From: Actinomyces respiraculi
GTDB lineage: Bacteria > Actinomycetota > Actinomycetes > Actinomycetales > Actinomycetaceae
Reading direction: 5' to 3'
Length of the DNA: 64,000 bases
NCBI RefSeq assembly: GCF_014595995.2
Contig: NZ_CP063989.1
Span: forward strand, 1,302,001-1,366,000
Shown here: positions 19,245-58,509 of the stretch, one piece after another
Layout of the letters: each line of letters opens with the position of its first letter
Position numbering within the stretch: position 1 is the stretch's first letter
The notes under the pieces: model-generated
Seen by the model: only the letters and a program-made list of their open reading frames with translations
Database searches by the model: none
What the model was told of the DNA's origin: nothing
Program-made: the position numbers and the translations under genes

Positions 19245-20037
19245 TTTTCGGTTTGCTCTGGTGAGTGCGGTGTTGTGCTGTTGTGGTGTCTTGGGGCATT
19301 GGTGGCGGTTCTGCCTCAAGGGCATCGGTGACAGTTCTGGGGGTTTGTGGGAGTGGGGTTTCTGGCTGGTCGTGGTGGCGGTGTGCTCCGGCACGCCCCG
19401 CCGTGCTGAGCCCGTGACGGTTTGAGCCTGGCGCCGGCATCCGTCGGCGGCCGGCTGCTGGCGGGGCTTGGGGCGTGCCCCGCAGGGTGGCGGCAGGGGG
19501 GCTCGCACGCTCATGTGACGGTTGTTAACGGTTGCACTGGGGTTTGCGGTGGTGGCCCGGGCTCCCATGTGCGTGGGCGGCCTTCGTGCACATGGGAGTC
19601 GGCGTGCTGGAGGGCACCGGTCGACAAACCCTAGGAATGGCGCCGTTGTCGACGAGTGTCGAAAAGTGTGAGCGTGCAAGCCCCACCCCCGGGCCCCGCG
19701 GCGCCCGCGTGCACCGTGCTGGTGTGATCACCGGGATTCTCCTCCAGGGCGCTCTGACTGCGTCGCCCGCCTGCGCCGTGCTGGTGTGCGTGCGGCGGGC
19801 GCCAGCCGTGGCCGGTGCCGGTCGCCGACGTCCGGGCTCCCGCGATCATGCCGTGTTCCTCCTGGCGGGATGAGCGTCGAGGCCGGTCGTGTGCGTCGTG
19901 TGGGGCACGTGCCTGCCTGGCACCCGGCCCCGCCAGGGGGCGGAACTGGACACACACAGCAACAACCCCCAAACGCCACCAATGTCCTGAGACATCACAA
20001 CAGTGAATCGCCGTACGTTCGAGAGCAAACCGAGGAG
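19245..20037. mobile_element. Non-coding intergenic element B with nested inverted ends
   Basis: The 859-bp gene-free gap 19225-20083 is almost wholly one element. Outer ends: TTTTCGGTTTGCTCTGG (19245-19261) and TTCGAGAGCAAACCGAGGAG (20018-20037), inverted. Inner ends: TGTGGTGTCTTGGGGCATTG on the left and, inverted, TGTGATGTCTCAGGACATTG on the right, the same termini as the 43292-45023 element. From 19245 to about 19800 it is a diverged, reverse-oriented copy of 57976-58509. A perfect 11-bp hairpin lies at 19562-19598. A duplicated GTGCTGGTGTG segment and a module shared with the 43 kb element (around 19847) fill the right part. There is no coding frame with protein-like composition. Confidence 0.75.
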
Positions 20038-43177: not shown

Positions 43178-43253
43178 GGACCTGTAGCTCAGCTGGTAGA
43201 GCAACGCGTTTACACCGCGTCGGTCGTCGGTTCGAGTCCGGCCGGGTCCACCA
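43178..43253 (+). tRNA. tRNA-Val (anticodon UAC)
   Basis: 76-nt cloverleaf: acceptor GGACCTG/CGGGTCC, D-arm GCTCAGCTGGTAGAGC, anticodon loop TTTACAC with TAC, T-arm CCGGTTCGAGTCCGGC region, discriminator A and encoded CCA (43251-43253). It reads GUA and other valine codons by wobble. The transposon-like element at 43292 begins 38 bp downstream. Confidence 0.95.
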
Positions 43254-43276: not shown

Positions 43277-43291
43277 GCCCCGTGCCTGCCG
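43277..43291 (+). repeat. Left target-site duplication of the 43 kb element
   Basis: GCCCCGTGCCTGCCG here and at 45024-45038 is identical over 15 bp and lies directly outside the two inverted ends of the element. This is the mark of a transposition event. Confidence 0.85.
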
Positions 43292-43483
43292 TGTGATGTC
43301 TCAGGACATTGGTGATAGTTCTGTGTCAGGGCATTGGTGACAGTTCGGGTGTTTGTGGGGTGACACTTCGGGTTGGTGTCGGGGATGGTCTTCTCCGGCC
43401 GGCCGGCCGCCCACCGGGGCCGTGGCAGTTGCCGGCCTTCAGGCCCTGGTGCTGCCGCCAGCTCGTCGTCCCACGGGTGTGGA

Positions 43484-44832
43484 CGGGCCCGGGCCGCCGG
43501 TGGCACGCGCTGTTGGTGTCGACGCGGTGGGCATGGACCGGGGATGGCGTTGACGCCCTGGCCCGGAGGCGCGCGATCATGCCGTACTCCTCCGGGCGGG
43601 TCGGGCGTGTGGGCTGGTCATGTCCGCGCCGTGGGCTCTCCTGGTGCCGGGGCGCGGTCGCGAGCAGGCCATGAGCCCGCCCTGCGCGCCGTGGGCTCTC
43701 CTGGTGCCAGGGGCGCGGTCGCCTCGTGCCCTGCTCCTGTCGCCGTGCGGGTGTGGACGGGCTCGGGCCGCCGGTCGTGCGCGCTGCCCGTGACCACACT
43801 GCGAACACGGGCGTCAGCTCCCCGATGGCACCCACAGGTCATGGCCCGACGTCATGGTCTTCGGGGCAGGGGCCTGGACAGCGCACGCCAAGCCCGTCCA
43901 TCTCGTTCCTCAGCCTTCCATCTCGTCCCTCGGCCTTCCATCTCGTTCGTTCACGCAACGAGATCAACGTGTGCGGAACGAGATCGACGTACGAGAAGCG
44001 AGATCAAGACCTGGACAACGAGATCGACGTGCCAGGAACGAGCCTCAGCCCTCCATCTCGTCCCTCTACCTTCCATCTCGTTCCTCAGCCCTCCATCTCG
44101 TTCGTTCACGCAACGAGATCAACGTGTGAGGAGCGAGGTCGACGTGCGAGGGACGAGAGCAGGACCTGGGCAACGAGGTCGACGCCGGTCCTCGTCGGGT
44201 CCTCCGGGCGCCGCGACCAGACGCGCCCATCCTGGCGCGTGCTCGTGGCCCCTCGGCGGGCGCGCGGCGCGCTGCCACCCTCCAGCTGCTCGGTGACAGT
44301 TCTGTGTCAGGACGTCGGTGACACCTGGGGTGTCTGCGTAGGTGACACGTCCGGGTGGCCTCGGGGGTGGTGTCCTCCGGCTTCCGGCCCACTGGGCCCG
44401 TGGCAGTCGCCGGCCTGGAGGCCCTGGTGCTGCCACCAGCTCGTCGTCCCACCGGGCTCGTACGGGCCCGGGCCGCCGCTCGCGCACCGCCGGTGTCCAC
44501 ACGGCGGACATCAACCGAGGCCGCCGTCGACACCCCAGCCCACAGGCGCGCGATCACGCCGTACTCCTCCCCGCGGGTCGAACACCCAGGCCGGTCATGT
44601 CCGCGCCGTAGACACCCGCGGGGCCGGGGCTCGGCCCCCTCGCGCCCGGACCCGGTCGTCTCGCAGGTGCGCACGGGCCCGGGCCGCCACTCGCGCACCG
44701 CCGGTGTCCACACGGCGGGCATGAACCGGGGATGCCGTTGACACCCCGGCCCACAGGCGCGCGATCACCCCGTTCTCCTCCCGGCGGGTCGAACACCCAG
44801 GCTGGTCATGTCCGCGCCGTGGACACTCCTGG
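43484..44832 (+). repeat. Three copies of a ~160-bp module inside the element
   Basis: Copies are at 43484-43644, 44461-44622 and 44676-44832. Each runs from ACGGGCCCGGGCCGCC through GGTGTC-AC-CGG to GGCGCGCGATCA, then a TACTCCTCC-like box and GGTCATGTCCGCGCCGT. A diverged relative lies in element B around 19847 (CGCGATCATGCCGTGTTCCT). The same stretch also holds a direct repeat of GCCGTGGGCTCTCCTGGTGC near 43629 and 43688. Confidence 0.75.
43900..44180. repeat. Palindromic array of ATCTCGTT / AACGAGAT units
   Basis: ATCTCGT(T/C) occurs at 43900, 43920, 43940, 44055, 44075 and 44095. The inverted unit AACGAGAT (one copy AGCGAGAT) occurs at 43957, 43977, 43997, 44017 and 44112, with AACGAGGT variants to 44179. 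Most are 20 bp apart. The block is itself a tandem duplication offset by 155 bp. Each half is a run of forward units followed by inverted units around GTTCACGC, so each can fold into a large cruciform. Confidence 0.85.
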
Positions 44833-45023
44833 ATCCAGAGCCCCACCTCCTCGCGGCCACCGGCACCCCAGAAGCGTCGAGACTCCGCTCAGACGGCCAA
44901 GGCCCTGACCGAACACACACCCAGCCCGAACCCGTCACCACATACATGTCCACCCACACCCCCAACCCCAAGCGTCACCAATGCCCTGACACAGAACCGT
45001 CACCGATGACCTGAGACACCACA

Positions 45024-45038
45024 GCCCCGTGCCTGCCG
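45024..45038 (+). repeat. Right target-site duplication of the 43 kb element
   Basis: This is the second copy of GCCCCGTGCCTGCCG, identical to 43277-43291 and in the same orientation, immediately outside the right inverted end. It overlaps nothing coding; the aminotransferase stop lies 3 bp further on. Confidence 0.85.
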
Positions 45039-45041
45039 CCC

Positions 45042-46217
45042 TCAGCGCAGCGAGGCCATAAATCCCGCCAGGCGATCCAGGCCCAGCGCGATCTCCTGTC
45101 GGCTTGCCGCATAGGACAGGCGCACGTGGGTGTCCGCCGTCGCCGCCCCGAAGTCGCGCCCCGGGGTCAGGGCCACATGCGCCTCCTCCAGCGCCCGCAC
45201 GCAGAAGTCCCAGGAGCTCAGCCCGCTCGCCGAGACATCGAAGTACACGTAGAAGGCGCCGTCGGGCTCCACCGGGACCTTCAGTCCCAGACGACCCAGC
45301 CCCTCCAGCGCCAGCCGACGGCGCTCGACCAGCTCCACCCTGCGCTCCTCGCAGGCCGCCAGGGCCTCGGGCGTGAAGCAGGCCAGTGCCGCGCGCTGCG
45401 TGTGCGCCGCGGCGCACAGGAAGAAATTCACCGCGAGGTTCTCCGCCGCCTCCACCAGGGACTCGGGCACCACCAGCCAGCCCAGCCGCCAGCCCGTCAT
45501 CGAGAAGAACTTCGAGAAGGAGGACACGACCAGCGCCTCGGGGTCGGTCTCCAGGACCGTGCGCGCGACGCGCCCGTCCTCATCCGGGTCGGCCAGCCCC
45601 AGGTAGATCTCGTCCACCACCCGCCAGGCGCCGCGCTCACGCGCCGAGGCGCAGATCTCCGCCAGCTCCCCGAAGGGGATGGACGTGCCCGTCGGGTTCG
45701 ACGGCGTCGCCATCTGCACGGCCGTGGTCGCAGGTGTCCAGGCCGCCTCCATGAGCGGGCGGCTGAGCTGGTAGCGCGAGGCCGGGTTTGAGGGCGCGAG
45801 CACCACCCGGCCACCGAAGGCCTCAACCAGCTCCCGGTTGCACGGGTAGCACGGGTCCGCCATGACGACGTCGTCACCCTCCTCCACTGTCAGCGCCGTC
45901 GCCAGGACCAGGGCGGCCGAGCCGCCCGCCGTGACAATCACCCGCCTCGGGTCCAGGTCCACGTGGTGACGCTGCCCGTACCAGTGCGCGATCGCCTCCC
46001 GCAGGGCCGGTAGGCCCGGTGCGGGCGTGTACGGCAGCGCCCGGCCGTCCATCACCTCACGCATGGCCTCGTGCACGCCCGGGGGAGCACCGAAGGAGGG
46101 CTCACCCAGGCTCAGCTTCGCCACGTCCCCGCCCGACGCCTCCAGGGCCTGCGCCCGGGCGCCGATAGTCATCGCGTGGAAGGGTTGGGCGGTCACGGCA
46201 CGCCGGGCGAGTTTCAT
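45042..46217 (-). CDS. PLP-dependent aminotransferase, class I/II
   Basis: 391 aa. Fold-type I aminotransferase with the PLP lysine in SSFSKFFSMTGWRLGW, the Asp in RVVDEIYLGL, and the substrate-binding NPTGT (ATPSNPTGTSIP) and final Arg in HVRLSYAAS. The N-terminus (ARRAVTAQPFHAMTIGARAQ) resembles aspartate and aromatic aminotransferases of the Arg-Phe type. The exact substrate is not readable. Start is ATG 46217, with TACGCT (46225-46230, minus strand) 7 nt upstream, so probably leaderless. The 43 kb element inserted within a few bases after the stop, removing any native terminator. Confidence 0.93.
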   Translation of the reverse strand: MKLARRAVTAQPFHAMTIGARAQALEASGGDVAKLSLGEPSFGAPPGVHEAMREVMDGRALPYTPAPGLPALREAIAHWYGQRHHVDLDPRRVIVTAGGSAALVLATALTVEEGDDVVMADPCYPCNRELVEAFGGRVVLAPSNPASRYQLSRPLMEAAWTPATTAVQMATPSNPTGTSIPFGELAEICASARERGAWRVVDEIYLGLADPDEDGRVARTVLETDPEALVVSSFSKFFSMTGWRLGWLVVPESLVEAAENLAVNFFLCAAAHTQRAALACFTPEALAACEERRVELVERRRLALEGLGRLGLKVPVEPDGAFYVYFDVSASGLSSWDFCVRALEEAHVALTPGRDFGAATADTHVRLSYAASRQEIALGLDRLAGFMASLR

Positions 46218-57955: not shown

Positions 57956-57975
57956 CGCCCCCGGCCCTCGCCCAA

Positions 57976-58509
57976 CTCCTCGGTCTGCTCTGGAGAGCAC
58001 GGTGTTTGGCAACGGTTGGTGCCCGCCGTACGCACACCAGCGCGGTGCAGGCGGGTGTCGTGGGGCCCGGGGGTGGGGCTTGCACGCTCACGCTTTTCGA
58101 CACTCGTCGGCAACGGCGCCATTGCTAGGGTTTGTCGACTGGTGCTCTCCAGTGCGTCGGCTCCCATGTGCATGGGGGTTGCCCGTGCACATGGGAGCTT
58201 GGGCCACCACCGCAAACCGCAGTGCAACCGTTAACACCTGTCACATGAGCGTGCGAGCCCCCCTGTCGGCAGCCTGCGGGGCACGCCCCGGGCCCCGTCG
58301 GCGGCCGGTCACCGACGGATGCCGGCACCAGGCTCAAACCGTCACGGGCGCGGCGGGGTGTGCTGGAGGAGACCACCACCACGACCAGCCAGAAACCCCA
58401 CCCCCCACAAACCCCGGAACTGTCACCGATGCCCTGGGACAGAACTGCCAGCGACGCCCTAAGACACCACAACAGCACAACACCGCACTCACGAGCGCAA
58501 AACGAGGAG
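57976..58509. mobile_element. Non-coding intergenic element E, inverted copy of element B
   Basis: It fills the 598-bp gene-free gap 57956-58553. Outer ends are CTCCTCGGTCTGCTCTGGAG (57976 on) and GAGCGCAAAACGAGGAG (58493-58509), inverted. The reverse complement aligns throughout with 19245-19800: shared blocks include GGTTTCTGGCTGGTCGTGGT, GACGGTTTGAGCCTGG, GCTCGCACGCTCATGTGACR, GTTAACGGTTGCACTG and CGACGAGTGTCGAAAAG. A perfect 11-bp hairpin lies at 58161-58197. The right side holds the inner end TGTGGTGTCTTAGGGCG (inverted), while the left inner end is missing. No protein-like frame. Confidence 0.78.

Follow-up and report, generated by a model that had tools for sequence, protein, structure and literature searches.

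Between the tRNA-Val gene at 43178-43253 and a minus-strand frame, putatively an aminotransferase, with its stop at 45042, the chromosome of Actinomyces respiraculi carries some 1.7 kb of DNA with long inverted ends, bordered by a direct repeat. What this stretch is, how it came to lie there and what its repetitive interior consists of are the questions raised by the locus. The window that was analysed is a stretch of 64,000 nucleotides, corresponding to positions 1302001-1366000 of a single contig of 2.91 Mb; five-digit coordinates below are positions of the window, whereas six- and seven-digit ones are positions of the contig. The reading favoured here, with a probability of about 0.9, is that the focal element is a non-autonomous IS481 derivative which was moved in trans by an IS481 transposase.

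Ends and interior of the focal element

The exact 15-bp direct repeat and the inverted ends agreeing at 45 of 50 positions, both described in the first-pass annotation, were found again on recounting: the letters at 43277-43291 equal those at 45024-45038, and the inverted ends agree at 45/50, 51/59 and 63/100 positions counted from the tips (43292-43350 against 44965-45023, 86% complementary over 59 nt). The left terminal inverted repeat contains two 25-bp tandem sub-repeats (43297-43321 and 43322-43346), and the tips of the element read TGTG...CACA. As three end pairs situated at separate places of the genome are bordered by 15/15 duplications, chance offers no reasonable account of the focal structure. 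The features of the element, together with two further copies occurring in the window, are collected in Table 1.

Table 1. Position of the focal element, its component parts and two related copies in the window
Feature	Position	Strand	Basis or remark
Transposase-less IS481-type element	43292..45023	+	1732 bp; ends, duplication and further copies in the same genome
Left 15-bp target-site duplication GCCCCGTGCCTGCCG	43277..43291	+	exact match to 45024-45038
Right 15-bp target-site duplication GCCCCGTGCCTGCCG	45024..45038	+	exact match to 43277-43291
Left terminal inverted repeat, TGTGATGTCTCAGG...	43292..43350	+	shares homology with the left ends at the 18 loci of relatives
Right terminal inverted repeat, ...CTGAGACACCACA	44965..45023	-	inverted match to the left end; homology to the ends of relatives
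Internal copy of the end sequence, left-end orientation	44283..44331	+	self-comparison of the element
Interior segment, recurring at 44377-44858	43399..43670	+	self-comparison
More copies of the interior segment	44377..44858	+	44459-44647 and 44670-44858; also 44377-44455
Array 1: 3 inverted ATCTCGTT-type cores, then 4 AACGAGAT-type cores	43900..44024	.	20-bp steps, 17-bp junction
Array 2: 3 inverted cores, 17-bp junction, 1 intact and 2 degenerate direct cores	44055..44159	.	right arm read from the sequence
Possible relic of a transposase 3' end (reads TTYMSTHTPNP)	44916..44969	+	tblastn with the L294 frame; DNA homology
Second copy in the window	19282..19999	+	different interior, other palindromes, no phased array found; between halves of a family P hairpin
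Third copy in the window, one-ended	57958..58491	-	different interior, other palindromes; between halves of a family P hairpin

The attribution to the IS481 family, which the first-pass annotation had drawn from the TGT ends and the long duplication, is supported by elements of sister Actinomyces. A search of the relatives gave matches in 22 of 39 genomes (own genome included), mostly via the ends and some of them weak, and 18 stretches were taken from nine relatives, chosen for two visible ends. Full-length end pairs of 1.4-1.5 kb make up 16 of them, from seven genomes, and exact duplications border 14 of these 16 elements, all of 15 bp except one of 16 bp; none was found for the other two (L295 and L303). 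The remaining two stretches, from two other species, are short elements that showed no transposase frame, one of 437 bp with a 15/15 duplication (L302) and one of 530 bp with 2 mismatches in 16 (L301). All four transposase frames that were tested have the IS481 model NF033577 of NCBIfam as their best match, at 190, 193.9, 116.6 and 98.6 bits, each below its cut-off of 224, and one transposase protein of the relatives carries rve domains. The transposase-encoding element with matching ends, which it had been proposed to look for, accordingly exists in sister species, where its duplications are as long as here, and this common length makes the two a candidate donor-partner pair for trans-mobilisation. 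Homology of the focal element with the 18 loci runs on the left to element position 63-98 and on the right from 1622-1676; being confined to both ends, it marks the outer parts as IS481 and leaves an interior that is not recognisably IS481.

An excerpt of a published account (PMC10045372) gives the target duplications of the IS481 family as 2-15 bp, the majority of 6 bp and some of about 15. With its TGT...ACA ends, its long inverted repeats, a duplication within this range and ends homologous to those of Actinomyces IS481 elements, the focal element resembles the family, but differs from it by the lack of a transposase gene, by its repeat cargo and by a length exceeding that of the autonomous relatives. 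The end of a Leifsonia IS481 element, as given in an excerpt of another account (PMC2516522), also resembles the focal ends by eye. In several relatives (L059-L062, L051), an IS481-type end lies near an open frame that is similar from locus to locus and was read by eye as a putative DUF559-like nuclease.

Autonomous members of the family carry their own DDE transposase gene, of which the focal element retains at most an 18-residue relic. In a translated search with 16 frames of the relatives, several of them low-complexity frames picked up by a loose motif filter, no transposase signal in the interior rose above shuffles, the best tblastn score being 58.9 bits against up to 63.9 in 20 block-shuffled versions; the IS481-matching frames among the queries (L290, L294, L295, L299) score just 25-35 bits against the element. 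A decayed transposase gene was rejected as the content of the interior on these scores, in agreement with the earlier statement that no transposase lies inside. The related statement, that the cargo consists of internal repeats and not of a decayed gene, holds for the repeats and calls for a reservation at the right end, where 18 residues match the L294 frame at 61% (29.3 bits by tblastn, below the shuffle maxima). These residues are possibly a trace of the transposase C-terminus; the DNA homology, which in 4 of the 18 loci of relatives (69-71%) starts as far in as element position 1622, argues for this candidate relic better than the tblastn score does. No match to Rfam at gathering scores occurs within the focal element. 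The repeats of the interior belong to a separate genome-wide family, which had not been foreseen.

A single protein query found no partner-type IS481 transposase in the own genome and gave 2 weak places (L065 and L066). The first holds an IS481-family transposase of another kind (L065:871-1960), split by an in-frame stop, and no focal-type end, the best site having 14 mismatches of 30; the best result of the same search in L066 was 11 of 30. The split transposase of L065 runs on in frame with a LacI-type regulator.

Copies, target sites and proposed movement

Other loci with the same ends, which the first-pass annotation had suggested searching for, are present in the own genome as well as in the relatives. 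The 1732-bp query gave at least 122 own-genome matches (scores were computed for 40 of 233 initial candidates), the longest among those listed lying at 1106052-1107382 (91%), 868401-869810 (89%) and 2073219-2074458 (87%), and a 96-bp end query gave 29. In 56 own-genome sources, namely 55 match-selected stretches and the window, 50 end-like sites were counted (at most 8 mismatches to a 30-mer) and 29 end pairs were compared, from which about 10 two-ended copies emerge besides the focal one. Direct repeats of 15/15 border the focal copy, 868396-869976 and 598442-599567; weaker ones border 2073036-2074458 (13/15) and 1050454-1051500 (11/15). The remaining 24 of the 29 pairs show at most 10/15 matches, and many of them are mispairings of inner with outer ends; two-ended copies among them are 1106047-1107654, 335609-336455, 1321282-1321999, 178047-178633, 907509-907930 and 284048-284974. 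A further two-ended copy, of uncertain pairing, lies around 597511-599588.

Two of these copies record an insertion. The one at 868396-869976 interrupts an open frame that becomes continuous once the element and one 15-mer are removed, and the left piece of this frame (L032:1365-1898) matches Imm32 under the Pfam cut-off. The copy at 598442-599567 is inserted in the end of another copy, whose 15 bp are duplicated exactly.

At the focal locus itself, the five relatives that were compared (L067-L071) show, where the tRNA-Val is present, other genes or unrelated sequence up to the aminotransferase (L070 ends before the tRNA-Val), and none of them offers a clean empty site. Element-free sites were found at other copies. 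Six or seven two-ended copies, together with the one-ended copy at 57958-58491, are enclosed by the two halves of a hairpin whose arms resemble CTCCTCGGTTTGCTCTCGAACGTACGG, and not by good direct repeats. This REP-like family, whose hairpins have a 7-nt loop (e.g., in L035 around 661120-661190), occurs in 2 of 49 genomes of the genus, the own genome and G024; the latter gave the closest match in the search of relatives, and its match coordinates are the same as those of the genome of L067, Actinomyces sp. AC-20-1. Among 17 stretches of G024 around such hairpins, two align on both sides of an own-genome element and lack the element, L341 at the copy 57958-58491 and L343 at 335609-336455; both hold the hairpin as read by eye, a strict finder (27-bp arms, 7-nt loop) having flagged neither of them and only two places in L334. 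The alignment of L342 with the copy at 178047 covers one side only. On either side of the hairpin-sited copies, the 15-mer approaches the form ACGG-N7-CCGT, the two loops being different or inverted, and these flanks are possibly a target duplication later altered by recombination between inverted copies.

The hairpin sites lend themselves to another explanation, in which one subfamily moves as a larger unit made of an A-arm, an IS481-type end, the interior, a second end and an A'-arm, the IS481 ends being mere passengers. The similar hairpin halves directly outside the ends of 6 or 7 two-ended copies, inverted and not direct, are what such a unit would display. However, five copies, the focal one included, lack such a hairpin and are bordered by direct repeats matching at 11-15 of 15 positions, the hairpins of the closest relative are element-free at two orthologous sites, and the flanking 15-mers close to ACGG-N7-CCGT have just the length of the duplication, all of which make the larger unit quite improbable. 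The suggestion that each copy is an autonomous IS481 element that decayed independently, without any movement of a transposase-less family, agrees with the match of the ends to autonomous elements and with the possible short relic at the right end, but is largely contradicted by the non-coding interior shared by the longest copies at 87-91% identity and by a focal interior without transposase signal above shuffles, and deserves hardly any credence.

The derivation from IS481 with movement in trans, already proposed as the simplest reading of a non-coding element, is supported by the homologous ends, the same duplication length and the multiple copies, to which the insertions into a frame and into another copy and the two element-free sites are added; against it stand the lack of an empty site for the focal copy in the relatives compared, the 6 or 7 two-ended copies set in hairpin halves, the two full-length elements of relatives that showed no duplication, and the fact that both element-free orthologous sites are of the hairpin type, unlike the focal site. 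Along this route, an ancestral IS481 element would have kept its terminal inverted repeats, with 25-bp sub-repeats to which the transposase presumably binds, and perhaps a remnant of the 3' end of the transposase gene, the rest of which would have been replaced by the repeat cargo. An IS481 transposase like those of sister Actinomyces would then have acted in trans on the ends, the insertion beside tRNA-Val would have duplicated 15 bp of target, and copies with the same interior would have reached several loci in the same manner. At 1.7 kb the focal element is longer than the autonomous elements of 1.4-1.5 kb, and is therefore not a simple deletion derivative. The divergence of 9-13% between it and the longest copies hints at a possibly old spread. 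With no partner-type transposase found in the own genome, the copies are probably stranded as long as none is acquired.

Transposase-less IS derivatives are in themselves familiar. Bacterial MITEs, usually a few hundred bp long, are likewise devoid of transposase, multi-copy and bounded by the ends of autonomous IS; the focal element shares these properties, but its 1732 bp enclose a structured cargo, and the other two-ended copies measure 422 to 1608 bp, one of uncertain pairing being longer. Insertion sequences that target REP elements, such as IS1397, offer a parallel to the several copies sitting in a REP-like hairpin family, yet the focal family has IS481-type ends and no transposase, and five two-ended copies, the focal one included, lie outside such hairpins.

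Phased arrays as cargo

The arrays found in the interior consist of head-to-head AACGAGAT cores set at 20-bp steps. Two AACGAGAT-type cores at a distance of 20 bp, searched for with at most 1 mismatch, give 117 + 102 matches in the own genome and 0 in the reversed control, and a stricter exact pattern gives 79 + 71 = 150 matches in the own genome and 0 in 48 other Actinomyces genomes, G024 included. The fetched own-genome stretches, selected for their matches and covering part of the genome, contain 313 units, grouped in 44 clusters over 36 loci. Column conservation averages 96% in the cores and 63% in the spacers, the core figure and the 20-bp step being partly built in by the picking of units with at most 1 mismatch and a neighbour on the same strand some 20 or 40 bp away. 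The minus-to-plus junction, which this rule leaves unaffected, measures exactly 17 bp in 41 of 41 cases, for arms holding 1 to 9 units. Within the 12 two-ended copies lie 8 of the 44 clusters, 4 of these copies being without a cluster, and some other clusters fall in copies of this element family that are one-ended or incomplete.

The arrays also occur on a second type of carrier. A group of them, near 554935, 2575691, 2638518 and 2695595 and inside 1050454-1051500, has flanks in common, which end in CCGCTTGACACACCACATAGGGGC, and the flank query matches 35 of 49 genomes of the genus (own included), in the others nearly always via its last 22-42 bases. The CCGCTTGACACACCACATAGGGGC-type end lies directly 3' of an IS110-family transposase frame in 3 of the 6 loci for which frames were listed (L305, L306, L313), with NF033542 above cut-off in L305 and L306, the two loci tested for family; an IS110 fragment was seen by eye in L310, and none in L308 and L311. 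Judged from its right end, the second carrier is likely of the IS110 type, but the assignment is not exclusive, since a stretch similar to the CCGCTTGACACACCACATAGGGGC end also lies within the split transposase of L065, in its 3' part. An IS110-type right end was noticed on array-bearing units of about 320 bp in L254, L253, L242, L040 and L043.

Three roles are possible for the arrays: a phased binding array, a hairpin, or a neutral minisatellite. There is a slight lean to phased binding sites for a DNA-binding protein, because the cores and the junction are rigid while the spacers drift; this suggestion is weaker than the IS481 reading and is not covered by the probability given for it. That the arrays would rather work as hairpins of RNA or of single-stranded DNA, in the manner of a terminator, an RNA-stability or a REP-like structure, is consistent with the folding of the inverted cores (z between -4.3 and -8.0 for five folds made on four arrays) and with the 39 of 44 clusters that overlap no likely gene by a frame heuristic. 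Such folding is, however, expected of any inverted repeat, and the spacers of the two arms are 46% identical within arrays against 53% between them (38 arrays with at least 2 units per side), which does not point to pairing preserved beyond the cores and gives no support to RNA covariation; a hairpin role is held at distinctly less than even odds. A neutral 20-bp minisatellite, spread by recombination and without function, would explain the runs of near-identical units in some arrays (2709490-2709617), and no binding protein is known for the array cores; the 96% conservation of the cores against 63% in the spacers, even if raised by the selection of units, and the 41 of 41 junctions of 17 bp across arms of such variable length count against it, and this origin too is given distinctly less than even odds.

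Known counterparts of the arrays are the iterons found in plasmid replication origins and partition sites, which combine a conserved core at about two helical turns with head-to-head arms. The present arrays share both properties, but are dispersed over the 36 chromosomal loci of the fetched stretches, partly on transposon derivatives. No phage match was found, plasmid records gave just end matches, in 2 records, and no viral contig held three exactly phased cores, on which grounds a phage or plasmid origin was rejected. In the open-access literature searched, neither an earlier description of such arrays nor a precedent for an element of this size with a rigid iteron-array cargo was found, and it is this cargo that is unexpected, a geometrically rigid array occurring on the focal element, outside it and in a second carrier. 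A tentative proposal, to which we grant distinctly less than even odds, is that the species-specific head-to-head AACGAGAT module is a functional protein-binding array that spread to about 36 loci partly as cargo of transposase-less elements of two unrelated kinds, IS481-ended and IS110-ended. If so, mobile elements would have installed a chromosome-wide set of binding sites, and seeded a new binding network, in one species after its split from the closest sequenced relative.

An even spacing of the array loci was considered and set aside, since the largest gap (479 kb, where the mean is 81 kb) is not clearly unusual by a rough estimate. Clean empty sites were likewise rejected for two small isolated arrays, where the intervals of the relative differ by larger blocks. 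One small array lies here between convergent genes (L246), and the closest relative has at this place about 600 bp of other sequence (L314), which may hold another gene.
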